64,000 nt of DNA, taken from positions 1,302,001 through 1,366,000 of the forward strand of contig CALSRM010000003.1 in the NCBI GenBank assembly GCA_943788755.1. Direction: 5' to 3'. Both the position numbers and the translations under genes were made by a program. Origin of the DNA: an uncultured Flavobacteriales bacterium (GTDB lineage Bacteria; Bacteroidota; Bacteroidia; Flavobacteriales_D; Parvicellaceae). This document shows, piece after piece, positions 4,006-30,027 of this stretch; the stretch's first letter is position 1; every line of letters starts with the position of its first letter. The notes beneath the pieces are model-generated. The model did not search any database. It was given only the letters and a program-made list of their open reading frames with translations, and was not told the DNA's origin.

Positions 4006-4659
4006 TTATTTTCCTTTTTCTTCTTCTTTAGCTTCCTCTGCAGGAGCTTCTTCTGTTTTGGCTTCGGCTACTGGCTCTTCAGCTTTTGCTTCTTCAACAG
4101 GAGCTTCTTCAGTTACCGTTTCAGCTACAGGAGCCTCTTCAGTTGAAACTTCCGCCGCAACTTCTTCTGTTGTTTCTTCAGCAACTGGAGCCTCTTCAAC
4201 AGGAGTGTTCTTTGCAGCTACAGCAGCAGCAGTTTTCTCATTTTTAACTTTTTCAGCAGCTAATCTTTTTGCAGCATCAGCATTTGCATCTTTTACTAAT
4301 TGATCAGCTTTACCTTGAATCTTATCCGCTTTTTCACCTAACCAAGCATCAAATCTTTTGTCTGCTTCAGCTTCAGTAAATGCACCTTTAGATACACCAC
4401 CTAATAAGTGTTTTTTGTACATAATACCTTTGTAAGATAATAAAGCTCTTACCGTATCAGTAGGTACAGCACCTTTCATTACCCAGTCTAAAGTTTTATC
4501 GAAATTAATTTCAATTGTAGCTGGATTCGTATTAGGATCGTATACTCCTAATTTCTCGATGAATCTACCATCTCTTTTCGCTCTTTCGTCAGCTGCTACT
4601 AAGTGGAAAAAAGGTTTGCCTTTTCTTCCGTGTCTTTGCAATCTTAATTTAGTTGCCAT
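4006..4659 (-). CDS. rpsP: Small ribosomal subunit protein S16 with long acidic C-terminal tail
   Basis: Residues 1-85 form the S16 core (MATKLRLQRHGRKGKPFFHLV, then the YDPNTNPA turn), a 30S assembly protein. It is followed by a helical, charged segment (about 95-150). The last 65 residues are an Ala/Glu/Val/Pro repeat built from variants of EEAPVAE. Total length is 217 residues, against 80-90 in Escherichia coli. C-terminal extensions of S16 are usual in Bacteroidota, but this tail is long. The repetitive coding produces a spurious antisense reading frame, which I do not annotate. Confidence 0.96.
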   Translation of the reverse strand: MATKLRLQRHGRKGKPFFHLVAADERAKRDGRFIEKLGVYDPNTNPATIEINFDKTLDWVMKGAVPTDTVRALLSYKGIMYKKHLLGGVSKGAFTEAEADKRFDAWLGEKADKIQGKADQLVKDANADAAKRLAAEKVKNEKTAAAVAAKNTPVEEAPVAEETTEEVAAEVSTEEAPVAETVTEEAPVEEAKAEEPVAEAKTEEAPAEEAKEEEKGK

Positions 4660-4843
4660 AATTTAATTGTTTTATAAGGGTGTTCAACCCGGTTAATTAT
4701 ATGAAATCATCACGTGATTTCGTTTAACAGGGCGCGAATATCGGTTATTTTCTTTGATAACAAAAGGAATAGCTACAAAAATGGATATTTATTTAGATAA
4801 TAACAACAGATTAATAATTTCTACAGACCTTTACATTTAAGAT

Positions 4844-5497
4844 ATGGAAGGAAAAAGTAGAATAATTGAAGAAGTTAAAGTAGAAATTAAGAAACAATTT
4901 GAGGGAGAAGGAACGGGTCATGATTGGTGGCACATGGTTCGAGTGGTGAATAATGCATTGACAATAGGAAGAGCAGAAAATGGCAACTTATTTTTAATCG
5001 AATTATCTGCTTGGTTGCATGATATAGGAGATCATAAATTTCATAAAGAAACGGATGCTCAAGAAAGGTTAATTACGCAAATATTAGATGATGTTGGCTT
5101 GAAGAAAGAAATTCAAAAAGAGATCTTAGCTATTGTTGCATCTGTATCTTATAAAGGAGCAAAGGTAGAGACCTTGCCTTCCACGCTTGAAGGTCAGGTC
5201 GTGCAGGATGCAGATCGCTTGGATGCAATTGGAGCAATAGGAATTGCTAGAGCATTTGCTTATGGGGGAAACAAAGAAAGATTGTTATATCACCCAGGAC
5301 AACCACCTGTTATGCATAATGATTTTGAAGCCTATAAGAATGATAAAGGACACACGGTTAATCATTTTTATGAGAAACTCCTTTTACTCAAAGAAAGAAT
5401 GCAAACCAGTACGGGAAAAAAAATGGCGGAAGATCGCCACGTTTATATGGAGTCTTTTCTTTCACAGTTTTACAAGGAGTGGGAAGGGAAGGAATAG
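4844..5497 (+). CDS. HD-domain phosphohydrolase (YedJ-like)
   Basis: 217 residues. Metal ligands of the HD superfamily are visible: HDWWH near residue 25, the HD doublet in WLHDIGDHKF near 60, and a downstream DADRLDAIGAIG near 120. The family comprises metal-dependent phosphohydrolases; the exact substrate of this subgroup is not evident. No signal peptide, so cytoplasmic. It is a single-gene unit, divergent from rpsP, closed by a terminator at 5513-5549. Confidence 0.88.
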   Translation: MEGKSRIIEEVKVEIKKQFEGEGTGHDWWHMVRVVNNALTIGRAENGNLFLIELSAWLHDIGDHKFHKETDAQERLITQILDDVGLKKEIQKEILAIVASVSYKGAKVETLPSTLEGQVVQDADRLDAIGAIGIARAFAYGGNKERLLYHPGQPPVMHNDFEAYKNDKGHTVNHFYEKLLLLKERMQTSTGKKMAEDRHVYMESFLSQFYKEWEGKE

Positions 5498-13900: not shown

Positions 13901-13924
13901 CAGTTGTTTTAATTCAAATTTGTT

Positions 13925-15052
13925 TTGAAAAGCAAAGGAAATTTATTTGAAGTTGCTCAAGTGTTTTTTAAAATGGGATGCATTGCATTTGGTGGTCCTG
14001 CTGCGCATATTGCCATGATGGAGGAAGAGGTGGTCAATAAAAGAAAGTGGATGAGCCGGCAACATTTCCTTGATTTAATCGGTGTTACCAACTTAATTCC
14101 TGGACCTAACTCTACAGAAATGACTATGCATTGTGGTCATGAAAGGGCAGGTATTCCGGGTCTTTTTGTGGCAGGTTTTAGTTTTATTTTTCCAGCAGTT
14201 GTAATAACAGGGTTTTTAGCATGGTTATATGTAAGTTATGGCAGTCTGCCTAACGTGGAGCCCTTTGTTTATGGAATTAAACCTGCTGTTTTAGCAATTA
14301 TAGCAGGAGCAGTTTTGAAGTTGGGAAAAAAGCTTTAAAAGGTTGGGAGTTAGGGTTTTTAGGAGTGCTAGTCATTGCAGCAAGTCTCCTCGGATTCAAT
14401 GAAGTTACGTGTTGTTGATTGCAGGAGTATTAGGAACAATTTATTTTACTTCAAAATCAAAAGTTAATGATTCCCTAAAATCAATTGTCCCATTTTTTGT
14501 TGCAATTCTTCAAGCTGCATTATTGAAAATTACTTCTGTAAAGTTTTTTGGACTTTCTTAAAAGTAGGTTCAGTATTGTACGGAAGTGGTTACGTTTTGT
14601 TTGCTTATCTAGATGCTGAGTTAGTTACTGCTGGATGGATGACTCAGCAGGAGCTGATGGATGCAATAGCTGTAGGTCAGTTTACGCCAGGTCCAGTGCT
14701 TTCTACAGCGACTTTTATTGGTTACCAATTAACAGGTTTCTGGGGTGCAGTTGCAGCAAGTTTAGGTATTTTTCTTCCTTCGTTTTTGTTCGTATTACTT
14801 TTGAATCCACTAATTCCGAAAATGAGAAAATCTAAGGTATTAGGTTATTTTTTAGATTCAGTGAATGTGGCAGCTGTTGCCGTGATGGCGGGTGTTTTGA
14901 TTGAGATGAGCAGAGTTGTTTTAATAAATGATTGGAGAGCAATTGTAATTGCTGTAATCAGTATTGGAGTAACTTTTGGATTGAAGAAAAGTAATGCTAT
15001 GTGGACTGTTTTAGGCGGTTCTATTTTAGGTTATTTATTACTTCTATTTTAA
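13925..15052 (+). pseudogene. Chromate transporter (CHR family), broken by three frameshifts
   Basis: Both halves of a two-domain CHR transporter are clear. The first half (13925-14338) has FGGPAAHIAMMEEEVV and LIPGPNSTEMTMH. The second half (14576-15052) has LYGSGYVLFAYLDAEL, FTPGPVLSTATFIGY and a membrane-rich end. Between them the coding continues in other frames: KALKGWELGFLGVLVIAASL from about 14333, then LLIAGVLGTIYFTS from about 14414, then KFFWTFLKVGSV. Two of the three breaks are in runs of six A (near 14328) and six T (near 14545). The first codon appears to be TTG, with a stop shortly upstream. The function would be chromate or sulfate-like anion transport. Confidence 0.85.
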
Positions 15053-15691
15053 TCCATTGATTAGCATCTGTCGGACTTCACTTAAGATAGTTGCAGTTGC
15101 TCCCCAAACAGTATTGTGGTTTAAATCAAAATAAGGAACATCTATTAATACAGGTGTCTCCGTGTATTTGCCTACTTTTATTTTCTTTTGTTTTATATTG
15201 CTATCGTCTGTCAAATCTGAAATTTTCACTTCAATTATTTCCTCGACTTCTTTCACTTCTGGAGTAAATACAGGTTCAAAATCCACAAAACCAACGAAGG
15301 GTGAAACTAAAAAGTTACTTGGAGGAATGTAAATTTGCGTTATTTCCCCAAGAACTTGAATTTTGTCAGGTGCAACGCCAATTTCTTCAAAGGTTTCTCG
15401 AAGTGCAGTTTCTTTTAAAGACTCTTCTGCTTCTTGTTTTCCCCCTGGAAATGATATTTGTCCTCCATGTGTTCCTTCATAGGCAGTTCTTTGAATTAAA
15501 GTGAAATGTGGAATGTCATTTCTTAGGGTAGATTAACATCAATACAGCCTAACTTTGCTTTTTGGGATTGTTTTATGGAATTGATGAAGTTGGCTTCTTT
15601 TGTAAGGAGCCATTAATTCATGAGCGCTGTCACCGGGAAGGTTGAAATTTATTTCTTGAAAAAGTAAACTTGTCAATTCTGATAATGTCAT
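15044..15691 (-). pseudogene. Nudix hydrolase, CoA pyrophosphatase-like, broken by two frameshifts
   Basis: Three pieces in two frames make one roughly 215-residue Nudix protein. The N-terminal piece (from the ATG at 15691) reads LPGDSAHELMAPYKRSQ and is followed by AVLMLIYP in another frame near 15540. The remainder returns to the first frame through to 15044. The Nudix box is intact (GGKQEAEESLKETALRETFE then EIG), as is an upstream QISFPGG. The family hydrolyses CoA and related nucleotides. The start ATG overlaps the msrB stop codon by one base. The end overlaps the convergent chromate-transporter gene by nine bases. Confidence 0.83.
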
Positions 15692-16147
15692 TAATCTGCT
15701 TCTAGTTTAAGAGAAGCCGAATTTACACAATATCTTAAGCCTGTAGGTTTTGGGCCATCATTAAAAACATGCCCTAGATGACCATCGCACTGGGCGCAGT
15801 TAATTTCAGTTCTCGTCCAACCATTTGAGCTATCTGTTGTTTCGGATACATTATGCTGCAATCTCTCGAAAAAAGCTTGGCCAACCTGTACCTGATTTAA
15901 ATTTGGTGTCTGAATTAAATAGTGGTAAGCCGCATGCTTTGCAGCAATAGGTTCCTTTTGTGTTTGTGTCCCAATATTCTCCAGTAAAAGCTCGTTCAGT
16001 GCCCTTTTCTCGGATAATATGAAATTCGCTGGGTGTAAGTATTTCTTTCCATTCAGCTTCCGTTTTTATTACTTCAGCCACTTTGTTGTCTTGACAAGAT
16101 ACAGACAAAGAGCCGACAATAATAAAAATAAATAATATGTTTTTCAT
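15691..16147 (-). pseudogene. msrB: Peptide-methionine (R)-S-oxide reductase MsrB, exported, frameshifted
   Basis: The first 98 codons give a lipoprotein-type signal (ending VSCQ near residue 19) and the MsrB domain, with the first zinc CxxC ([10 protein letters not shown]) and SGTGWPSFF. The frame then stops at 15851, but the next frame carries on with [14 protein letters not shown], the second CxxC ([14 protein letters not shown]) and the catalytic Cys in RYCVNSASL, ending at 15691. One surplus T in a run of six T near 15868 explains the break. MsrB repairs oxidised methionine; the signal suggests periplasmic action. The stop overlaps the Nudix start (TAATG). Confidence 0.87.
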
Positions 16148-16296
16148 GATAAAGAATTTTCTAATAGAACTAAGATAATACTTATTATAGTATGGAAATC
16201 TTAATATTTTAGTTGATTAAGTAAATAGATTTTTAAGCAGAAAGCTATAATATCTTAAAAAAGGGAATATTTTTACAAAAAAACATTATTTAAGTT

Positions 16297-18324: not shown

Positions 18325-18753
18325 TTAGTCTTTTAATCTTCTAAATTCCTTTACCTCTATTATTTTTCCGGTTTCACCCTTTTTTAATGTAATCAAAAGT
18401 GCATCGGGGCTAATTATTCCATCAAACTCAACGAAGTGAATGTTTTCACCACTTCCCCTATTAAAAGAGAAGGATATTTCAAGGCTGTCAATTTTATAGG
18501 TAGTTTTTTTAGCTGTTTGGCAATTATCGTTTTCAACGCAAGAAACTAGATTTCCTTTTGCTTTTTTTCTTTTTTTAGAAATAATAATAGCAATGTTTCC
18601 TTTGTTGTCAAAATACAAAAACTCTTTGGTTTTGTTTTCTGTCTGCAATTGATAAAATCCTTGGAGTGTTTTTCCTTTTCTAACTTTTATTGTCTTTTGA
18701 GCGTGAGCTAATGAAGATGTCAGAAAGAAAGATATAATAAGGAATATGCGCAT
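18325..18753 (-). CDS. Small secreted protein, third gene of the chaperone operon
   Basis: 142 residues with a clear signal peptide (MRIFLIISFFLTSSLAHAQ). The mature part is basic and mostly beta, with two Cys (VSCVENDNCQ) that could form a disulfide. I do not recognise a family. The start lies one base after the stop of the MORN-repeat gene, which itself overlaps the chaperone gene, so all three are almost certainly one transcript. A role in the same surface system is inferred from this linkage only. Confidence 0.72.
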   Translation of the reverse strand: MRIFLIISFFLTSSLAHAQKTIKVRKGKTLQGFYQLQTENKTKEFLYFDNKGNIAIIISKKRKKAKGNLVSCVENDNCQTAKKTTYKIDSLEISFSFNRGSGENIHFVEFDGIISPDALLITLKKGETGKIIEVKEFRRLKD

Positions 18754-18754
18754 T

Positions 18755-19951
18755 TTATTTCAAAGGAAGATCTTTGATTTTTACGTTATTCTGATACTCA
18801 GCTTTTTCAATTACCGCACCTTTTTCATTATAGGCAATGGCGATTCCATTTCTTGATCCATTTGAATAAAGGTTGTGAACTTTTAATTTACCCGAAGGAT
18901 AGTAGAATTTCCAATTTCCTTCTTTTATTCCATTTTTGTATTCACCTGTATGTGAGAGAAGACCACTTATTCTTTCGTAAAATTTAAATTCACCCGTTTC
19001 TTTATCGTTACTATAATTACCTACCTGCTTTTTTATCTTATTTGGGTAAAACACTTCCCATTTCCCATTATACATATTATTAAGGTAGGTTCCTTCATAA
19101 TATTTTTCGCCATTTGGATAAAATGTTGACCATGTACCCGTTTTTTTTCCTTTGGAATAAATTCCTGTTGTATATATTGCTAAGGAATCAGTGTCAAAAT
19201 ATTCGGTATAGCCTCCTTCGATATTGTCGTTAATATAGCTGCATTCATTCATTAAATTTCCACTCGGATAAAAGCCTTGAAACTTTCCAGTCAAAACTCC
19301 ATTTTCATAAAAACATATTTTCTGCACTGTGTCTTTGTGTTCTTTGTGATAACCAATGAATTTACCTATATATTTTCCGTTGGCTCTTTCGGCTTTTTCT
19401 TGGAGATTTCCGTTCTCATAAAATTTCTCACTGGGCCCGTTTTCAATACCTTTAACCATAGTGTATGATTGACGAAGTTTGCCGTTTTGGTAGTATCCTT
19501 TACAAATTCCGCTTGGCAAGCCATGCGAGTAATTCGTTTCTTCCATCAAGTTTCCATTCTCATGGTATATGATAACTTTGCCATGTAGAATATCATTTTT
19601 GTAATTTGAAATTTGATGAAGGCTTCCTAATGGATAGTAAGACTTTATTTCCCCTTCTAGAAAATTATTTGAAAAGAAGAGGTCTTGCTTTAGTTGCCCA
19701 TTGTAATGATTGTCAATCCATTTTCCTGTAAGCTGGTTGTTTTCGAAATTTCCTTTTTGCCAAAGGTTTCCGTTTTTGTGATAGATTAAATAGTTGCCAT
19801 TTTTGATTGTATCACCTCGTTTAATTTTCGCAAAATAAATCTCTTTTGGTTGGCTATTTTCACTGTCCCAGAAGGTCTTGATTTTTTTCTGAGCAAGAAA
19901 GAATAAGGGAGAGATGGTTATTAGTATTGTCAATAACAATTTCATTATCAC
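18755..19951 (-). CDS. Secreted MORN/YwqK-like repeat protein, second gene of the chaperone operon
   Basis: 398 residues. After a signal peptide (best read from the second ATG, at 19945) come about fourteen repeats of roughly 23 residues with the pattern 'G-x-x-x-x-Y-x-x-N-G-x-L' (YHKNGNLWQKG, YPLGSLHQISN, FYPNGEKYYEG). Such repeats stack into a long beta ribbon. The start codon overlaps the chaperone stop in an ATGA arrangement, indicating translational coupling. The neighbourhood suggests a periplasmic or surface accessory protein of the fibre system, not an antitoxin. Confidence 0.82.
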   Translation of the reverse strand: MIMKLLLTILITISPLFFLAQKKIKTFWDSENSQPKEIYFAKIKRGDTIKNGNYLIYHKNGNLWQKGNFENNQLTGKWIDNHYNGQLKQDLFFSNNFLEGEIKSYYPLGSLHQISNYKNDILHGKVIIYHENGNLMEETNYSHGLPSGICKGYYQNGKLRQSYTMVKGIENGPSEKFYENGNLQEKAERANGKYIGKFIGYHKEHKDTVQKICFYENGVLTGKFQGFYPSGNLMNECSYINDNIEGGYTEYFDTDSLAIYTTGIYSKGKKTGTWSTFYPNGEKYYEGTYLNNMYNGKWEVFYPNKIKKQVGNYSNDKETGEFKFYERISGLLSHTGEYKNGIKEGNWKFYYPSGKLKVHNLYSNGSRNGIAIAYNEKGAVIEKAEYQNNVKIKDLPLK

Positions 19952-20739
19952 AGGTCAATAAGTATTTGCGTGCCTTCTAAGTTAGTTCCGTGACCATAAT
20001 CTAAAATAGCTGCTAAAGCATGTTTCCCTGTTCCAATAACGCTTGGTAATTCAAGTGTAAAGGTTCTTTTTTCCCCTGGGTACACTCTTTCCATTTTCGA
20101 AGGAAATTTTTGCTCCTTTGCGGTTTCTAGATTTGCCAATGCAAGTTGAACCCTTGCTTCAATAATCTTGTCTCCAATATTTTCTACAGTTATAGCAAAA
20201 CTTCTAATAGAATCGCTTTCTTCCGTCTTTTCAACCAGGTTACCTATGGTAGCTTTAAATTTATCATTTGTTTTTGGAGATTGATTTACCAAAATAACGA
20301 TCCGTGGAGTAATTTTTATTCCAGTTGCTAATTCTTTGTCAATTGGGTTCTCATTCTGCTCAGAAGCTGCTTGTACATATATCATTCCCCATTTTGATGC
20401 GTTCTCACCTTTTGGCACAGTCATAATAACTGTTATTTGTCTTTCTTCGTTTGGGTTTAATTCAATGAAAGAAGGATTAACTGTAATCCAGTTTGCACAA
20501 GATCTATTAGAGGATCCAGCTGGCATTCTTTTTTTTCTCCCATCTACATCCATTTCAAAATCACCTAAATTGAACGTGAATGCTTGTTTAATGTTTGCAT
20601 GATTTCTAATAGTTACTGTTGATTGCTGAATTTCTCCAGGGTTAGTGCTGTAATTTAATACGACTGGAGCCACTTCAAAATCTTGTGCATTAACAAAGGT
20701 GATTCCAAATAAAAAAATAAAGAAGAATGAAAATCTCAT
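19948..20739 (-). CDS. PapD-like periplasmic chaperone
   Basis: 263 residues from the ATG at 20739; the start is fixed by a signal peptide (MRFSFFFIFLFGITFVNAQ) and by a promoter just upstream. Two Ig-like domains follow. Domain 1 shows the fimbrial-chaperone plan: APVVLNYSTNPGEIQQSTVTI, NWITVNPSFIELNPNEERQI and then KWGMIYVQ. Domain 2 ends in GTGKHALAAILDYG. PapD-type chaperones hold fibre subunits in the periplasm by donating a strand. It is transcribed divergently from two pilin-like genes and a giant outer-membrane protein gene, as expected for a chaperone/usher-like system. The family assignment is by pattern only; a general Ig-like envelope protein is the alternative. Confidence 0.72.
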   Translation of the reverse strand: MRFSFFFIFLFGITFVNAQDFEVAPVVLNYSTNPGEIQQSTVTIRNHANIKQAFTFNLGDFEMDVDGRKKRMPAGSSNRSCANWITVNPSFIELNPNEERQITVIMTVPKGENASKWGMIYVQAASEQNENPIDKELATGIKITPRIVILVNQSPKTNDKFKATIGNLVEKTEESDSIRSFAITVENIGDKIIEARVQLALANLETAKEQKFPSKMERVYPGEKRTFTLELPSVIGTGKHALAAILDYGHGTNLEGTQILIDL

Positions 20740-20754
20740 AAGATTGGTTTTGTA

Positions 20755-20784
20755 CAAAAATAACAATTGTTAAACAAAAAACAA
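20755..20784 (-). promoter_or_regulatory. Promoter of the chaperone operon (-33 TTG, -7 TATTTTTG)
   Basis: On the minus strand a TTG (20782-20784) is separated by 19 bases from TATTTTTG (20755-20762). This fits the Bacteroidota TTG-N17-23-TAnnTTTG promoter well. The predicted transcript would begin near 20748, leaving a leader of about nine bases before the ATG at 20739. Confidence 0.6.
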
Positions 20785-20959
20785 TTTTAATATCGCAGAC
20801 AAATAATCCCCTAGTATTTGTAATTCAAAACTAACTATCTGGTTAATGAAAATTGTTAGTCACATAATTTTTTACCTAAAAAACGTAACCATTATTCCAT
20901 TTTATATGTATATTGTCATCAATTAATTAAAAAACATAAAAAAAATAAAAACAAAACTT

Positions 20960-21628
20960 ATGAAAAAGCTCACTTTTTTGTTGGCAGGTTTCCTATTGTA
21001 CGGAACAACTTCTAACGCACAAGCTGTAAGGGATAGAAATGTTATTCCTTTAGCAGTAAACCTAAATCAAGTATTGAGAATGTCAATTACTGATGGAGGA
21101 AATATTGAATTTACTTTTAACAGTATTGATGACTATCGTTTTGGTCTTTCTGGTGATGCAGCTACCTCTTTGTCTGCCAATCCTGCAACTTCTGATCCGA
21201 TGTATGTTTCTAACTTTATCATCGCATCTTCTACTAGATGGGAATTAAGTTATGGATCGGAAGAAGCTACTTTTATAGGGACTGATAATCCAGCTAATAC
21301 ATTAACTTTGGATAATGTAGGTTTTTCATTGGTAGCGAATACAATACATCAATTTGGTACTGAGATAACATCGGTTCCAACAGTTGACGGAGCAGAGGTT
21401 TCTGCTTTAGAACAATTTCCTGTTGTATTAATCACAGATAATGGAGATCCTTTGTCTAGTGCAGGTGATGTTTTGGATAATGATTTTACAATGACATGGA
21501 GAGCAGGTACTGCTGAAGCTGGTGCTGCACCAGCTCAAATGAATACTGTTGTTCTTTTGGAGCAAAGTCCATCTCCAGCACCGGATAGATATATTACTAA
21601 TGTGTTGTTTGAATTAGCGTCTTTATAG
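20960..21628 (+). CDS. Secreted pilin-like subunit A
   Basis: 222 residues with a signal peptide (MKKLTFLLAGFLLYGTTSNAQ) and no cysteine. The mature protein is beta-rich and acidic, with the segments NIEFTFNSIDDYRFGLS (about residue 50) and RWELSYGS (about 95). The 182-residue protein encoded next shows matching segments (HIEFNFNSLDKYNTGIT and GWHLDFQT), so the two are paralogues. No T9SS sorting domain is present. Size, export, pairing, the divergent chaperone and the hairpin after the gene all resemble a major pilin of chaperone/usher operons. I do not recognise a named family. Confidence 0.68.
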   Translation: MKKLTFLLAGFLLYGTTSNAQAVRDRNVIPLAVNLNQVLRMSITDGGNIEFTFNSIDDYRFGLSGDAATSLSANPATSDPMYVSNFIIASSTRWELSYGSEEATFIGTDNPANTLTLDNVGFSLVANTIHQFGTEITSVPTVDGAEVSALEQFPVVLITDNGDPLSSAGDVLDNDFTMTWRAGTAEAGAAPAQMNTVVLLEQSPSPAPDRYITNVLFELASL

Positions 21629-21654
21629 TATAAGATAGTTATAATAATTATTAA

Positions 21655-21686
21655 AATAATCAGCGGTTTGTTAACCGCTGATTATT
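21655..21686 (+). terminator. Intercistronic hairpin after pilin-like gene A
   Basis: A 14-bp perfect stem (AATAATCAGCGGTT with its complement) closes a TGTT loop. The following sequence has only short T stretches, so it may be a partial terminator or a 3' stabiliser. Either would give more subunit A than downstream products, as reported for major-pilin genes in pap-type operons. Confidence 0.6.
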
Positions 21687-21732
21687 TAATAGTTCATAAA
21701 TTGAACCCTATTAGAATATTTTACTAGTACTC

Positions 21733-22281
21733 ATGATTAATTCTTCTAAATGTCTTCTGTTATTAGGTTGTTTAATGTTTCATTTGCAGCAATTATCGGC
21801 ACAAGATAATGTTGCTCGTTTAACTACAATAATAGGTTCACATATAGAGTTTAATTTTAATTCACTAGATAAATATAATACTGGAATTACTGTCACAAAT
21901 GGAACAACTATTGGTATAACGATGTCAGAGATTGCTCCAGCCGTATTAACGGGCTGGCATTTAGATTTTCAAACTTGGATGGGACAGCCAAATATTGATG
22001 GAGCTGTAGGGAATACTTTACCTCTCAACACTATACAAATAGAAGCGACCGATGCAAATGGGAATCTAGCAGCTGCAGTTTTTAATGGATTACAAGATTT
22101 AGCTGTTTCTCCTGGAAACACTTTAATGTCAACTACGGATTTAGCCCATAGACCAGCAGATGCAAATACGCATCAAATTAACCTATCCTATGAATGTGGG
22201 ATAGCAAATGGTTCATTGTTAGGGCAATCTTCTGACTATTATACTGTTGAGGTAGAAGTGATATTAATTCCTGATTTCTAA
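21733..22281 (+). CDS. Secreted pilin-like subunit B
   Basis: 182 residues with a signal peptide (ending about LQQLSAQ at residue 23). The segments IEFNFNSLDKYNTGIT and TGWHLDFQTWMGQP match the neighbouring subunit A in order and spacing. The protein ends in a beta-like DYYTVEVEVILIPDF, reminiscent of the C-terminal strand of pilins. It follows the hairpin after subunit A and lies 17 bases before the usher-like gene. By analogy it could be a minor, tip or anchor subunit; that is inference. Confidence 0.65.
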   Translation: MINSSKCLLLLGCLMFHLQQLSAQDNVARLTTIIGSHIEFNFNSLDKYNTGITVTNGTTIGITMSEIAPAVLTGWHLDFQTWMGQPNIDGAVGNTLPLNTIQIEATDANGNLAAAVFNGLQDLAVSPGNTLMSTTDLAHRPADANTHQINLSYECGIANGSLLGQSSDYYTVEVEVILIPDF

Positions 22282-22298
22282 TAATTTCGTAGTGATAA

Positions 22299-25200
22299 AT
22301 GGATAAAAAAAGATATTTCTTTTTTATAGTATTGCTAGTTTTTGGAATGTTTGGGTATTCTCAAGCACCAGACTCATTAGGCTTGATTAGTGATAGTGTT
22401 AGCGTTGTTGATACTATGAGTAATGAAGCAGATAATGTTATGGATGATGTAATTTCCATTGATTCTGCAAAATTCAAAAAGATTCATATAGAGTTTATCA
22501 AAAAGAAGGTTGTGCAATCTGCAGACTCTCTCTATTTTAATATTTGTAAAATAACGAATACGACTTCTGAGGTTTATAAAGGAAACTTTGAAGTTAGAGC
22601 TCCAGCTGGCTGGAACCTCATTGGAGATCCTTCATCTGGAATCGTTTTGGCGGCAGGTGAAACTAAGATATTTCCCATTAGAATGTCTATGCCTGTTAAT
22701 GCAGTTGGGGGAATTGCTTACGTTTTAGATGTGTCATTTACAGCAAAAGATGGCATGTTTTCAGGGGTGTCTTACATTAAAATCCCGTTAAAAAGTGATT
22801 GGGATATGCGTGTAGAAAAGAATAGTTATTATTTTAATGAATATTTCGATGACATTCAGTTCAACATATATATATCTAATAAAGGTAATGCTGAAGAATT
22901 AGTAAAACTCAAATTCGAGATTGGCAAACTACTAATTATAGATGAGATAATGGAGGAAGAAATATATACGCAAATCCCGCCAAATACAGACACCATATTT
23001 ACGTATTCAGTTCGCAGAAGTAAGTTAAATGAAGAACAGAAGCATTTGTATAAGCAAATGTGGAATGAATCAATGGTTAATGTTACCGCATTATCAGGAA
23101 TTAAAAAAAGAGTAAGAGAGTCTATTCGATTTGTAGATTTAGATAATGAATATATTCATGAAAGACAAGAGCATGCTTCTCCTTTAAATGCTGATTTCTC
23201 AATATTCAATTTACTTTCATCTGCCAAACCAAGAATGAATATGATGTTGTTTGGAGAGTTGTTGTTCAATGGAGATCATGATTTAGGTTATGTATTCCAA
23301 GGAAGGAATTTATTTTATAATGCTAATTCTTTACCTAACTATTTTAATAATCCAAACAATACAACATTTAGAATTCGGTATAAATGGAAAGATAAAATAA
23401 AAGCCGAAATAGGAGAGGTAAGCAATTACTCTATGCACTCCATAAGAGGTTGGGGAGTAAGAGGCTCTTACCAAATAAATGATAAAGACAAGGTGAGTGT
23501 TTCTTATAATTTGGGGAAATATATGCCTACTTGGGGAATAAACGCCCGATATGACACTAAAATTAAAAAGGTAGGGCTTTATGCCTCTGGCACATACGAA
23601 GAGAATAGGTTCTTATTCTTTGATGGAATATCGACAGAATTAGGCAGTAGTTTTAGTTTATCAAAAAACCATTCCTTTCGAGCTTCAATAATGGGTACAC
23701 AGGCAGTTTATGATAAAAACCAAGGTGTTGGAACTCTTCTTGATACTACTGTTCTTGGTATGTCATATAGGTTCAGCTATAATGGTAAAGTTGATAAATT
23801 TAGATTTGGAGTTAATACCAAAAACGACCAGTTTAATTATTTAAGAATTAGACCGTCTAATACTATTTATGGATATACGCGGTTTATTATTGATCCAAAA
23901 AATAGAATAAACGCTACAGTAAATTATAATTCAATTAAATCTTCAAAAATTGTATTCAATCCATTTTTTAACGGGTCATATAATAGCCAACAAATATTTA
24001 GATTAACATTTACACATCAGTTTAATAAAACGCTAATGCTAGAAACCGGTCCTTCGGCAAGAGTATTGAACAGGGTTGTGATTGATACTTCAAGTACCAT
24101 ATCTTCAAATTTCGACAATTATTTTTACGGTTTGTATAGTTTGGTTAGAATTAAATTTAATGAATTTAATATTTTAACCCCTTCATTATCGGCAGGAGTA
24201 ACAGCTTTTAGGAATAGACTAAACACAGCTGAACAAATTAAACCACTGCCAACTGTCAATATTGGGGCTAACTTTACTTCAAGAAATTGGGGTGCTAGTT
24301 CTAGATACATTTATGGTCCAAATTTCTTCTTAACCGAAGGTTTCTTTGATTATAATCCAGCTGCTTTTGAAACAATCTATCTAAGGGCTAATATGAATAG
24401 GTATTTTTATAATCGTAAGGTAAAACTTACGGGTTACGGGACATATTATTTGAGGCTTCCAGCAAATTGGCAAAATTTTGTTGCTAGTGCCCGATTTGAT
24501 TTTCAATTACCACAGCGGTGGAATGCATACATAACTGGGAATTTATTCACAAACAGCATGGATGAAATAAATGAAGGAATTATTTCGCACAGGAGTTTTA
24601 GTTTAAATGCAGGTGTTCAGAAATCATTTGATATACCTCAACCAAGAATTAAATATTATGATTTAAATGTAGTTTGTTTCAATGATTTTAATGGTAATGG
24701 GGTAAGAGAAGATAATGAGCCATTACTTTCAAATATTAAAGTGAAGGTGTCTATGAATAGAAACATCCCGAATTTAAAAGGAATTCGTTTTGGAGAAAAA
24801 GAGTTAATTACAGATCCTGAAGGGCAACTTGGAGTAGTTGATATTCCAGAAGGTAATTATTTGTTAGAATTTGAACCACTAATGAATCTTGGTAACCTTT
24901 ATAATTCTAAGGGGGATATTCAAGAAATCTTAATGACCGAAAATATGACATTACAGATTCCTTACGTTGAAAGCTTTAAGGTAAAAGGAAGAGTTATATT
25001 AAACAGAGATGAGTATAGTAGTAATGGATTAATCAACATAGGTGGAATTAGGGTGGAAGCAAGCACGGTTGATGGTCAAGTTTTTTCTGCTCTTACTGAT
25101 AATGAAGGAAATTATTTAATTAACGTTCCACAAGCTGGATTTTACAAGATAAAAGTTAATAATATTTTTGGAGATAAATTTGAAATTGACAAAGAAGAAT

Positions 25201-25736
25201 TTTCAATTCAATTCAATGGTTTCAAAACCTTTAATGTTGATTTTACATTTTTTGAAGGGAAGCGAAAAGTTAATTTTGGTGGGAATAACTTTTTTAATTT
25301 TGGATCAGGAAGTGGTTCTGACGATTTTTCAAGTGACAATAATGTGGATGACATAGCGCCAATTAATGTTGATGAAAACCTAATGCAAAATAAAGACGAC
25401 CTTAATTTTATTATCAACGGAGTATCTGAAAGTAACATACGATCTATAACTGCAAATATCGACCCCAATAAAGTGAAATTTATGGTGGAGATTGGCGTGT
25501 ATTCTGATGTTGTTCCAGTGGAGGTAGCGAATAAAATGATAGAATTACGAGTAGTTCCAACTCCTATTGAATCTGCTGGTATAACCATTTATGCAACTCA
25601 GGTTGTTGCCACACATGATGAAGTTGTCAGACTTCACAAGAAAATTGTGGAAGTTGGTTTTACTCAAGCTCTAATTGTAGGAAGTTATAATGGGAAGGTT
25701 ATATCAGAGGCAAAAGCAATTCAGTATAAGAAATAA
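22299..25736 (+). CDS. Usher-like outer-membrane protein with Ig-like, barrel, SdrB-like and SPOR-like regions
   Basis: 1145 residues. Signal peptide 1-22. Residues about 60-280 are Ig-like with a NEW3-type pattern (APAGWNLIGDPSSGIVLAAG). Residues about 300-780 alternate polar and hydrophobic residues with many Tyr, Asn and Arg, as in an outer-membrane barrel. At about 790 a calcium-binding SdrB-like loop appears (FNDFNGNGVREDNEP), then a carboxypeptidase-like sandwich (about 890-960). An acidic Asp/Asn/Ser linker leads to a SPOR-like C-terminus from about 1058 (VKFMVEIGVYSD). Ushers also combine periplasmic domains, a large barrel and C-terminal Ig-like domains, so with the chaperone and pilin-like genes next to it I propose an assembly platform. 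Sequence homology to FimD is not evident by eye. Confidence 0.7.
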   Translation: MDKKRYFFFIVLLVFGMFGYSQAPDSLGLISDSVSVVDTMSNEADNVMDDVISIDSAKFKKIHIEFIKKKVVQSADSLYFNICKITNTTSEVYKGNFEVRAPAGWNLIGDPSSGIVLAAGETKIFPIRMSMPVNAVGGIAYVLDVSFTAKDGMFSGVSYIKIPLKSDWDMRVEKNSYYFNEYFDDIQFNIYISNKGNAEELVKLKFEIGKLLIIDEIMEEEIYTQIPPNTDTIFTYSVRRSKLNEEQKHLYKQMWNESMVNVTALSGIKKRVRESIRFVDLDNEYIHERQEHASPLNADFSIFNLLSSAKPRMNMMLFGELLFNGDHDLGYVFQGRNLFYNANSLPNYFNNPNNTTFRIRYKWKDKIKAEIGEVSNYSMHSIRGWGVRGSYQINDKDKVSVSYNLGKYMPTWGINARYDTKIKKVGLYASGTYEENRFLFFDGISTELGSSFSLSKNHSFRASIMGTQAVYDKNQGVGTLLDTTVLGMSYRFSYNGKVDKFRFGVNTKNDQFNYLRIRPSNTIYGYTRFIIDPKNRINATVNYNSIKSSKIVFNPFFNGSYNSQQIFRLTFTHQFNKTLMLETGPSARVLNRVVIDTSSTISSNFDNYFYGLYSLVRIKFNEFNILTPSLSAGVTAFRNRLNTAEQIKPLPTVNIGANFTSRNWGASSRYIYGPNFFLTEGFFDYNPAAFETIYLRANMNRYFYNRKVKLTGYGTYYLRLPANWQNFVASARFDFQLPQRWNAYITGNLFTNSMDEINEGIISHRSFSLNAGVQKSFDIPQPRIKYYDLNVVCFNDFNGNGVREDNEPLLSNIKVKVSMNRNIPNLKGIRFGEKELITDPEGQLGVVDIPEGNYLLEFEPLMNLGNLYNSKGDIQEILMTENMTLQIPYVESFKVKGRVILNRDEYSSNGLINIGGIRVEASTVDGQVFSALTDNEGNYLINVPQAGFYKIKVNNIFGDKFEIDKEEFSIQFNGFKTFNVDFTFFEGKRKVNFGGNNFFNFGSGSGSDDFSSDNNVDDIAPINVDENLMQNKDDLNFIINGVSESNIRSITANIDPNKVKFMVEIGVYSDVVPVEVANKMIELRVVPTPIESAGITIYATQVVATHDEVVRLHKKIVEVGFTQALIVGSYNGKVISEAKAIQYKK

Positions 25737-26113: not shown

Positions 26114-27082
26114 CTATTTGATGATCAATCTTTTCGTTGCTTTCTGTCCATTAACTGAAACTTCAACTAAGTATATACCTGATGGATAATCAGTCGTATT
26201 TAAATTAATAACAGAAGATGTAGAAAGTATACCGTAGTTTTTAGTCGCTACTTCTTTTCCTAGTAAATCTAATACGCTAACAGCAACTTCTGATTCGTTA
26301 TCAAGAGAAACCTCGATAGAAGCAGATGTAGTTGCAGGGTTAGGAAATACAGTAAATACAGTAAATGAAGATGTATTATTCAACTCATCAAGACCAACTC
26401 CAGTCCAATCATTTATTTCAACATCGTCAATATAAAAATTAGATGTTATTTCTGCACCACCAGTACTTGCATATCCAACTCCGAAAATATCTACAGAGCC
26501 AAATCCAGATGCTGCTCCCCAGTTTCCATTGTTTACTGCAGTACCATTAATTGAAAGGCTAAAAGTAGATGCATAAAGATTAATCATTACACTTACAGCA
26601 TTCCATCCGTCCATGCTATAATTAAATGTACTATCATTATTCTGAGCATTGGTAATAAATCCGGTCCCATCTGCATTGAAAAAGAAATCTCCTCCATATT
26701 GGTAGTTAAGGCCATCTGGAGCCCATGTTCCTCCTAGATTGAAGTAACCCGAAGATCCAGAAGCAACATAAATTGCACAACTGTATTCATAAACTCCAGT
26801 TGTATACGTTTGCTGTGTTGCTAAAACCATATCATGAAGATAGTTTCCTTGCCCCGGCCCTGTGTTATAGACATTCATTGAATTAGTACCACTATTTGCT
26901 TGTTCTGCACTAACAAATGCATCTTCGGCTGTTGTTCCTCCCCACGTTTCCCATAGTCCTGAACTCTCTGATGCCACTGTATTTCCCGCAGTGTAGCTAT
27001 CAAAGTTGTCTGATAGAATGTTTGTTTGTGCCATTAAAATAGTTGGAGCAATTAGTAATGTTGAAAGTAGAATTCTTTTCAT
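26114..27082 (-). CDS. Secreted T9SS cargo with lectin/LamG-like domain
   Basis: 322 residues. A signal peptide (MKRILLSTLLIAPTILMAQ) is followed by a jelly-roll-type domain (about 22-225; SDNFDSYTAGNTVASES near its start, GYFNLGGTWAPDG inside). A linker leads to a T9SS type A sorting domain (about 245-322): VFPNPATTSASIEVSL, SVLDLLGKEVATKNYG, YPSGIYLVEVSVNGQ and KRLIIK. It is therefore exported through the type IX system and probably attached to or released from the cell surface. The domain type suggests carbohydrate or protein binding; no catalytic residues are recognised. Confidence 0.85.
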   Translation of the reverse strand: MKRILLSTLLIAPTILMAQTNILSDNFDSYTAGNTVASESSGLWETWGGTTAEDAFVSAEQANSGTNSMNVYNTGPGQGNYLHDMVLATQQTYTTGVYEYSCAIYVASGSSGYFNLGGTWAPDGLNYQYGGDFFFNADGTGFITNAQNNDSTFNYSMDGWNAVSVMINLYASTFSLSINGTAVNNGNWGAASGFGSVDIFGVGYASTGGAEITSNFYIDDVEINDWTGVGLDELNNTSSFTVFTVFPNPATTSASIEVSLDNESEVAVSVLDLLGKEVATKNYGILSTSSVINLNTTDYPSGIYLVEVSVNGQKATKRLIIK

Positions 27083-27708: not shown

Positions 27709-29447
27709 TTAAAGATTTAGTTTTTCTTTTATGTTTTTCACAGTCATAGCTTTTATATCAATAATTTCCATTTCAAATTGATGCTTTTTTTCTTTCGACA
27801 TATTTTTGAAATATAGTGGCTTAATAATCGCTATATCATTGTTTGCAGTAAAAGCAACAATTGTGTTTTCTTCTTCTGGATTGAATTTAAAATTATTAAA
27901 CTGTGATTCGTCATATGTAAAAACAGCATTTTTGTTTTTCTCAATAAGATTAACATTGTGCAATCCCAAATTTACTCCTACGTTGTCGGCGAAAGACGCA
28001 TTAACCTTAGCTCCACTTGGTTTAGATACGGGAGAGTCGCAATTCCATGTTCCGAAACGAGTTACTTCAAAAGCCCTTGCAACGATGTTAATTCCTAAAA
28101 TATTTTTTTGGTCTTGCTTGACTTGAGCAAAATAAGCAGCCTGATTCTTTTCGAAATCAGCTTGCCTTTTCTTCTCCATCGCAAGCTCAGATTCATAAAT
28201 TTTCATTTGCTTTTCATACTTCTCTTTTATGTTTTCTTCCTTAGAGATTCTTTTGTCTAATTCTTTCTCGTATAGCAGTAAATTTTTGATTGAATTCTAC
28301 CATTGCTTGTTTATAATCAGCGCCTTCAAATATTGGGAAGACTGAAAATGTTCTTTTTGCACTTCCCTTAAACAATGTTAAGTAATAAGATTTCCCCTTT
28401 TCTTTCTCCGATAATGAAATATCTTCCCATTCGATTTCATAAACATCCGCAGAAAAGTTTCTGTCATCCGTATCCACTTCAAAAGTTAATGAACTGTAAT
28501 TTTTTAGTTCTGGAAATTCTTTTGGATCCACGTCTAAATCAAATTGTCGGTCTTTGTTGATCGATGATTTAGGTTTGGAAGGCTGTGTTTTCTTATGCTC
28601 AATAACTTCCTTTTTCGCAATAGCTAATTCAGTTTTGGTTACTTCTATTGCTTCTTTGGTTTTCATTATATCAGTAATTACATCTTCATCTGAATCTTTG
28701 ATAAGTAACTGTAGGTGCACCAGTACTTTCATCCATGCCTTCAGATACGAGTTCAGTTTTTCCTTTATACTCCCAGTCTCCAGATGAAGTGTCCAGCTCA
28801 TATAGGTTAAACCTACTCGAACCATCTTTTGGATGCATTTCTATACGAATTGGCTTATCATTTGCCAATTCGATGGGTTGACCATTTTGATACCCATAAA
28901 TTTCGATCATTCCAGCAGATTCGAAAGTATATTCGGTTCCTGCACTATCATATGTCATTGGAATACCGGATAGCATGAAGTCTATAGGATCGTGAAACTC
29001 TCTGTATCGGAGTTCAATTTTTCCGTTTAATGAATTCCCATTAATATCTACAAATGCATTTTTTGGAACTAATATAGTACTACCCGAGCTGTGTGTAAAT
29101 TCACCACCAACTTCATTTTCACAATAATAAGAGTCGGATTGAATGTCCAGTTTTTTAATTGGAGGGTTAATACATGGGGTATCTTCATCATAAGTAATAA
29201 TACTTTCTGTCGTAAAAGGGGGGGGGGCGCTAACAATAATCTCTTTAGTGTTATTGCTTGAAAATAGTATGGCCGCAACGGTAACTAAAACAGCAACACT
29301 TGCAACTGTTGTAATAAACCATCCTGTTTTATAAAAAGGAAGTTTTATGTATCCTGGGAAATTTGTCAAGAGTTGATTGAAATTCATTCTTGACGCTATC
29401 TCCTCTCCATTAATTGGGTCTCTGTCAATGTTAATTTTCTTTTTCAT
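27709..29447 (-). pseudogene. Membrane protein partner of the ECF sigma factor, frameshifted twice
   Basis: Three overlapping reading frames make one protein of about 580 residues. Piece 1 (29447 to about 28700) has a short cytoplasmic start, a membrane helix near residues 43-63 (WFITTVASVAVLVTVAAILF) and a periplasmic beta domain (GEFTHSSGSTILVPKNAFVD). Piece 2 (about 28700-28245) continues with KDSDEDVITDIM, a Lys-rich coiled coil and VDPKEFPELKNYSSL. Piece 3 (about 28260-27709) restores a long coiled coil and ends in KEKLNL. The start overlaps the sigma gene by 17 bases. The layout suggests a membrane-bound anti-sigma or envelope sensor. The indels may be real or assembly errors. Confidence 0.7.
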
Positions 29448-30027
29448 AGTTGTAACTTTTTCTCATAGAAAAACGCTTTTTGAGTTTTTCAACGATCCGA
29501 TAAGCCTTCACTTTCGCATTATTCTCAGTCATCCCAAGAATATCCCCAATTTCACGATACGAACGCTTTTCAAAATACCTCATTTCAATAATTTGTAGTT
29601 CAATTTCTGGTAAATCACCAATTACTTCTATAAGGGCTTGTCTCATTTCTCCTGTATTATCTTGCTCCACTTCATCTATAATGTCTTCAACATTACTCGT
29701 GTCTACATTTACAGTTCGAGTTGATTTCTTATCCTTAAAAGATTGATAAACTTCACTCATTGCAATTCTATATAACCAAGATGAAAAAGGGACTCCTTTG
29801 TATTTATATTTTGGCAAATTTATCATTGCCTTTAAAAATACTTGAGAGGTAATGTCAAATGCCATTTCCTTATCATCCATTCGCTGATGTATGTATCTAA
29901 AGATCTGTTCGTAGTACTTTTTGTAAAGTGCTTCGAATTGCTTTGGATCCTTTTTCGCAGCTTCAACAATATCGTTTTCTGACAATAATTGCTTTTGAGA
30001 CTGATGATAGATACTTTTTCCCTGCAT
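29431..30027 (-). CDS. RNA polymerase sigma factor, ECF type (module 1)
   Basis: 198 residues. Region 2 is visible at about 28-95 (FEALYKKYYEQIFRYIHQRM and FDITSQVFLKAMINLPKYKY). Region 4 lies at about 125-185 (LPEIELQIIEMRYFEKRSYR, EIGDILGMTENNAKVKAYR). ECF factors redirect RNA polymerase to envelope or stress genes. The stop overlaps the start of a single-pass membrane protein gene, the usual place for an anti-sigma factor. It is divergent from a TPR/PP2C phosphatase gene. Confidence 0.92.
   Translation of the reverse strand: MQGKSIYHQSQKQLLSENDIVEAAKKDPKQFEALYKKYYEQIFRYIHQRMDDKEMAFDITSQVFLKAMINLPKYKYKGVPFSSWLYRIAMSEVYQSFKDKKSTRTVNVDTSNVEDIIDEVEQDNTGEMRQALIEVIGDLPEIELQIIEMRYFEKRSYREIGDILGMTENNAKVKAYRIVEKLKKRFSMRKSYNYEKEN

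Follow-up and report, generated by a model that had tools for sequence, protein, structure and literature searches.

A cluster of six genes in the genome of an uncultured Flavobacteriales bacterium (Parvicellaceae) probably encodes a Bacteroidota system for assembling fibers (pili) in the manner of the chaperone/usher pathway. The cluster lies within a 64,000-nucleotide stretch of DNA (GCA_943788755.1, contig CALSRM010000003.1, positions 1,302,001 to 1,366,000), the whole of which we call the window. Sequence comparisons revealed that a PapD-like chaperone, two secreted subunits (sub1 and sub2), and a large outer-membrane protein (OMP) are encoded by one conserved gene set; we infer that this set operates by donor-strand exchange and produces surface fibers. 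In our judgment the chances are about even that it represents a branch of pilus assembly in Bacteroidota that depends on a chaperone but uses an OMP machine of its own in place of an usher, and that this branch is the source and the assembly route of the TLP filaments solved by cryo-EM. Going by a predicted model, that machine would combine a barrel of about 26 strands, without a plug, with N-terminal domains of PapD-like/Ig type and a tail that binds peptidoglycan. An earlier, sequence-only reading of this DNA had proposed a divergent or convergent fiber assembly system. The chaperone homology, the TLP-family subunits, and the gene co-occurrence sustain that proposal, but membership in the usher family was not borne out. 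Given chaperone homology without a link to ushers, we describe the system as one that works like the chaperone/usher pathway rather than as a member of the usher family.

All six open reading frames are intact. On the minus strand lie the genes for the two-domain chaperone (19948-20739, 263 amino acids), a secreted MORN_2-repeat protein (18755-19951, 398 amino acids), and a further secreted protein (18325-18753, 142 amino acids). The chaperone and MORN genes overlap by 4 bases (19948-19951), and a single base separates the MORN gene from the gene for the 142-residue protein. A divergent intergenic region (20740-20959, bounded by start codons at 20739 and 20960) leads to three genes on the plus strand. 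These encode sub1 (20960-21628, 222 amino acids), the candidate main fiber subunit on the basis of its TLP profile match and N-terminal extension; its paralog sub2 (21733-22281, 182 amino acids), a tip or end-cap candidate judging from alignments; and the OMP (22299-25736, 1,145 amino acids), a candidate outer-membrane pore according to AlphaFold2 and Foldseek. Within the intergenic region we found no site for a simple Bacteroidota promoter pattern, which was itself not above chance. All six proteins begin, by eye, with Sec-type signal peptides, and those of the subunits have A-Q type cleavage sites with no cysteine and no lipobox. None of the six carries a type IX secretion system (T9SS) C-terminal sorting domain of the Por_Secre_tail type in a Pfam scan. 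The gene positions, the orientations, the overlap, the 1-base gap, and the lack of a T9SS sorting domain on the subunits therefore all agree with the sequence-only reading.

We surveyed 60 genomes of relatives, 299 genomes of the order, and 395 Bacteroidota genomes. Among the 60 relatives, 10 carried both the chaperone and the OMP, 1 the chaperone only, 1 the OMP only, and 48 neither (Fisher p=1.6e-9, a value uncorrected for the shared descent of these related genomes). Given this association and the recurrence of the genes in other genomes, we concluded that the arrangement reflects more than chance. OMP orthologues in the relatives are 44-51% identical, and distant OMPs about 22-25%. Chaperone-MORN genes divergent from sub1-sub2-OMP were also found in L031, L032/L045, L033, L040/L050, and L041. 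In Paludibacter/Bacteroidales genomes the sub1-sub2-OMP block is kept, and the chaperone-MORN pair is found on the opposite strand downstream of it (L047) or at another place in the genome. A prediction drawn for OMP genomes without a nearby chaperone was confirmed, as 9 of the 9 tested carry exactly one chaperone, and in three Paludibacter genomes this unlinked chaperone still has MORN beside it.

Across the 395 genomes, distant OMPs of about 920-970 amino acids are mostly accompanied by a chaperone of the same family and by one to five pilin-like paralogs. The distant clusters (L083-L093) often contain an adhesin-like gene of 340-480 codons, while L094 has an OMP-like gene only; judged by gene content, their layout is that of an ordinary pilus operon. 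By the same kind of evidence, the core gene set is chaperone, sub1, sub2, and OMP, and it recurs across Bacteroidota. The earlier suggested check, co-occurrence of the six genes in relatives, thus came out positive for these four, and strongly so even where the chaperone is unlinked, but not for the 142-residue protein, and for MORN it applied in one branch only. In L088 (6303-9530) and L091 (914-4461), four or five closely similar pilin genes stand in tandem and may give rise to variation among subunits.

Eight MORN_2 repeats (PF07661, E 6.9e-37) make up the recognized domains of the MORN protein, and its gene adjoins the chaperone gene in 12 of the 13 chaperone loci examined in the window's branch. 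The idea of MORN as a new accessory part can therefore be kept for that branch, but not for the distant clusters, where no MORN gene was seen. Because MORN tracks the chaperone gene, the protein is perhaps a chaperone partner. A relative of the 142-residue protein was found only beside the L032/L045 cluster (31% identity), so this protein is probably not a conserved part of the system.

Profile comparison places the PapD-like protein in the PapD/FimC chaperone superfamily. When 20 Bacteroidota chaperones were aligned with seven Escherichia coli K-12 chaperones of the FimC type using HHalign, the probability was 94.6 (E 6.6e-8) over 194 columns that span both domains, compared to at most 2.8 for 20 column permutations and 0.4-0.7 for reversed profiles. 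The match remained at 83.1 (E 8.8e-6) without signal peptides; the window's branch alone gave 61.5, and the distant members alone gave 91.1. Homology over both domains with clean controls bears out the earlier description of a two-domain periplasmic PapD-like protein. The window chaperone ends directly after domain 2 and has no transmembrane helix. A proline in chaperone domain 1 is described as invariant superfamily-wide (PMC4654587), and Pro89 of the window chaperone lines up with the corresponding proline in the TPP motif of FimC (a firm alignment) and in the LTPA motif of EcpB (a weak one). Pro89 is invariant in an alignment of nine sequences from the branch and is not kept in all distant relatives. 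The window chaperone has no match to the Pfam family PapD_N, which appears below the cut-off in relatives (0.0025 and 0.021), and the archaic-type anchors Arg89/Arg148/Tyr169 of EcpB could not be confidently placed in it. PDB searches with the single chaperone sequence returned nothing useful, and those with the chaperone profile returned chance-level matches only. An HHalign match of 80% between chaperone and pilins was discarded as a signal-peptide artefact, as it fell to 0.3% without the signal peptide.

The two subunits are related to each other, as had been claimed, with about 23% identity, and they are the only members of their family in the window's genome. Neither matches a curated Pfam family above the cut-off. 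After its signal peptide, sub1 starts with an N-terminal extension, AVRDRNVIPLAVNLNQVLRM, and its C-terminal strand is RYITNVLFELASL. In alignments sub2 is without the residues preceding NVARLTT, and hence without the extension, but keeps the C-terminal strand, YYTVEVEVILIPDF; the strand shared by the two subunits shows alternating hydrophobics. In four Bacteroidales orthologues the sub1 extension is 85-90% identical, compared to 50-55% for the body, and it ranks first among 20-residue segments, jointly with the overlapping one just after it. A conserved extension on sub1 only, together with a C-terminal strand, is the pattern expected from a donor-strand mechanism, which makes the sub1 extension a donor-strand candidate. 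At the level of sequence, then, the polymerizing subunits have both the N-terminal extension and the conserved C-terminal strand by which chaperone/usher subunits are recognized. HHalign comparison of the pilins with K-12 pilins gave weak matches (16-34%) covering the C-terminal strand only, and we did not use these as proof.

A profile of sub1 and sub2 searched against the PDB retrieved the entries 9ikk ("TLP-2", E 1.9e-8) and 9ikj ("TLP-1", E 1.9e-7), and these sequence matches place sub1 in the same family as the solved TLP proteins. Each entry contains 16 chains, as in a helical filament, and the solved TLP chain starts at the N-terminal extension. We take both to be CryoSeek filaments from pond water. 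A 2026 review states that neither proteomics nor metagenomics could establish the identity of such filaments conclusively (PMC12967142). The aligned part of TLP-2 shares 39.5% identity over 238 amino acids with sub1 of L039, and 31% with sub1 of L036/L052; these sub1 genes sit in chaperone-sub1-sub2-OMP operons (G042, G035; sibling G058). A TLP-2 search of the order yielded a 44% match in G585, whose neighborhood, fetched afterwards, proved to be chaperone-sub1-sub2-OMP. The closest TLP-2 relatives found, at 42-44% identity, lie in an operon of this type; a TLP-2 search of the 395 genomes across the phylum gave one weak match. In L036/L052 the sub2 counterpart (4010-5335, plus strand) is a 441-residue two-domain protein with a tip-adhesin-like layout, of which the C-terminal half, following an extra N-terminal domain, matches TLP-2 (29%, E 1.6e-20).

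The OMP was modeled with AlphaFold2 from a 12-sequence alignment (mean pLDDT 72, pTM 0.43). The model contains two Ig-like domains (residues 62-280), a barrel of about 26 strands (297-776), beta-sandwich domains (about 788-986), and a C-terminal SPOR-like domain (1059-1145). The barrel has no plug, as no insert above about 20 residues occurs between strands. The sequence-only reading had described a barrel-like center between Ig-like and C-terminal beta domains and had named a barrel of 20-plus strands as its criterion; the predicted model contains each of these. Among Foldseek matches in the PDB, FimD occupied ranks 1-4 and PapC ranks 10-11, with E down to 4e-10. HHalign matched the chaperone to the OMP N-terminus at 95%; because this fell to 70% without the signal peptide, we consider PapD-like N-terminal domains on the OMP only likely. 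The OMP C-terminal region bears a weak likeness to EcpC (29%, HHalign). No curated Pfam family exceeded the cut-off on the OMP, with weak matches to SdrD_B, NEW3-like, and CarboxypepD_reg, and PDB searches gave nothing useful with the single sequence and only chance-level matches with the profile. Distant OMPs have no SPOR-like domain. A C-terminal SPOR-like domain (residues about 1045-1145 here) is common to other OMPs of the order, for example in L015, L020, L021, and L023; these have open frames of about 700-760 amino acids and occur in many genomes of the order, several copies in tandem.

Taken together, these features suggest a mechanism in which Sec would export all parts to the periplasm, where the chaperone would cap each subunit. 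The subunit-chaperone complex would then be handed to the OMP, with its predicted barrel of about 26 strands, the N-terminal Ig and C-terminal beta-sandwich domains acting as the periplasmic domains of an usher do. At the pore, the extension of an incoming sub1 would take the place of the strand donated by the chaperone to the preceding subunit (donor-strand exchange). Since without an extension sub2 can only receive a strand, it would sit at an end of the fiber, the tip being the simplest choice. Anchoring of the pore to peptidoglycan is the probable role of the SPOR-like domain, and MORN, whose gene accompanies that of the chaperone, may act as an accessory.

Several results weigh against this interpretation. 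The Arg8/Lys112 pair (FimC numbering) of classical chaperones holds the subunit C-terminus. The equivalent residues are V and L in the window chaperone, and the window's branch has neither member of the pair; R and K occupy these positions in five distant relatives (L085, L087, L089, L090, and L092). Arg89 of the archaic/alternative type was likewise not seen in the window chaperone, where the alignment is weak. The AlphaFold2 model of sub1 (20 sequences) reached a pLDDT of only 38, so we base no claim about the subunit fold on it; that this fold lacks a strand is a possibility supported indirectly, by the conserved N-terminal extension and by homology to a solved filament protein. The Foldseek TM-scores between OMP and FimD are low (0.18/0.28). 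In VIA comparisons, large non-usher barrels scored equal to or above ushers: MtrB (6r2q_B) gave Z 16.7 (rmsd 6.4, 437 aligned), compared to 13.1 for the FimD pore 3ohn (rmsd 8.2, 352 aligned) and 12.3 for PapC 2vqi (rmsd 8.7, 351 aligned). Comparison with the usher family PF00577, a check suggested in the sequence-only reading, gave a negative result: the family has no match in the whole genome, and the OMP matches K-12 classical ushers at 1.2% in HHalign. That test is not sensitive, because the accepted ushers EcpC and FimD-type match each other at 5% only. Judged by sequence, and by the plug and strand count of the model, the OMP does not, as tested, qualify as a member of the usher family.

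A further such result concerns the chaperone, since WxLIP_PGBD (PF06030) matches that of a distant relative above the cut-off (1.2e-7) and several others weakly. The WxLIP domain is known from Gram-positive bacteria and is no pilus chaperone. The PapD-like protein might accordingly be a permanent, fold-completing partner that holds sub1 and sub2 at the envelope in WxL/WxLIP-type surface anchoring, with the OMP as anchor and no polymer formed; an AlphaFold2 model does insert a WxLIP strand into WxL (PMC10599100). We regard this as unlikely: the subunit family includes proteins solved as filaments, the N-terminal extension is present on sub1 and not on sub2, and in distant clusters as many as five pilin paralogs occur together with an adhesin-like gene. 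Moreover, the subunits have no WxL match in Pfam, and the FimC match spans both chaperone domains.

The OMP could also be a fiber base or receptor rather than a secretion pore, the subunits leaving by another route such as T9SS without the usual tail. Its lack of usher sequence similarity and of a plug, the resemblance of its barrel to MtrB and LptD, and a T9SS cargo gene next door (26114-27082) would all suit such a role. It is nevertheless improbable in our view, as OMP presence closely follows the chaperone, the subunits have no T9SS tail, and the OMP combines an usher-like series of periplasmic domains, a big barrel, and C-terminal beta-sandwiches, with FimD as its top Foldseek match. Type V pili (FimA/Mfa1), which Bacteroidota build from lipoprotein precursors, share the phylum and also form fibers by strand complementation. 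This explanation is disfavored and has very little chance of being correct, given ordinary Sec signal peptides that lack a lipobox, no fimbrillin Pfam match on the subunits of the window or its relatives, and a PapD-like chaperone and large OMP that are not known to be part of the type V system. Assembly that works like the chaperone/usher pathway thus remains our preferred explanation.

Regarding the surroundings, the cargo gene that adjoins the cluster (26114-27082, minus strand) is of T9SS type A and encodes a C-terminal sorting domain (E 3.5e-13), implying that the organism probably also uses T9SS. Downstream of the cluster (28686-30027, minus strand) lie, by eye, a putative regulator of the sigma-70 family and, beside it, a membrane protein that might be its anti-sigma factor. 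At 13913-16216 a frameshift splits each of three neighboring genes, either because of indels in the assembly or because the locus is decaying. Also named by eye, these would encode a chromate transporter of the ChrA type (13913-14338 / 14471-15052), a hydrolase resembling NUDIX proteins (15539-15706 / 15044-15532, minus), and a reductase resembling MsrB (15851-16216 / 15691-16065, minus).

For Bacteroidota, the familiar surface systems are type V pili and T9SS adhesins. Chaperone-usher pili have been described for Proteobacteria, Cyanobacteria, and Deinococcus-Thermus (PMC4654587), and the papers listed by our literature searches did not describe the present system. If our interpretation is true, a phylum-wide chaperone-dependent pathway has a different pore, and the chaperone/subunit logic works with another outer-membrane machine. 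For the TLP filaments it would also supply a gene cluster, assembly genes open to testing, and candidate producer organisms.

Among the closest known systems, classical and archaic/alternative chaperone-usher pili (FimC/FimD/FimA, Csu, ECP) have the following in common with the cluster: a two-domain chaperone of the PapD superfamily, gene clustering, small secreted subunits marked by an N-terminal extension and a conserved strand at the C-terminus, genes for adhesin-like proteins (here in relatives), and a large OMP with C-terminal beta-sandwich domains. Usher barrels have 24 strands and an inserted plug domain, whereas the OMP model has about 26 strands and no plug insert, and the protein shows neither a PF00577 match nor detected similarity to K-12 classical ushers. 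Two N-terminal Ig domains, the extra SPOR-like domain, the MORN accessory, and a window chaperone without Arg8/Lys112 set the system further apart, and Bacteroidota are not among the phyla named for these pathways in PMC4654587. WxL/WxLIP clusters resemble it in their PapD-like first domain (PF06030) and their small and large partner proteins, and strand insertion has been proposed there too (PMC10599100). However, these Gram-positives have a transmembrane anchor on WxLIP and no outer membrane or OMP, and Pfam found no WxL domain on the subunits here. Type V pili of Bacteroidia (FimA/Mfa1) share the phylum and strand-complementation fibers but differ in their lipoprotein precursors and their fold, and they are not known to use a chaperone/usher. 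As for the TLP-1/TLP-2 filaments, the window sub1 matches TLP only weakly one-to-one (E 0.088), and no assembly genes are tied to them in the literature searched; they share with the cluster the sub1 family (by profile, E 1.9e-8), and sub1 proteins of sibling clusters are about 39-44% identical to them.

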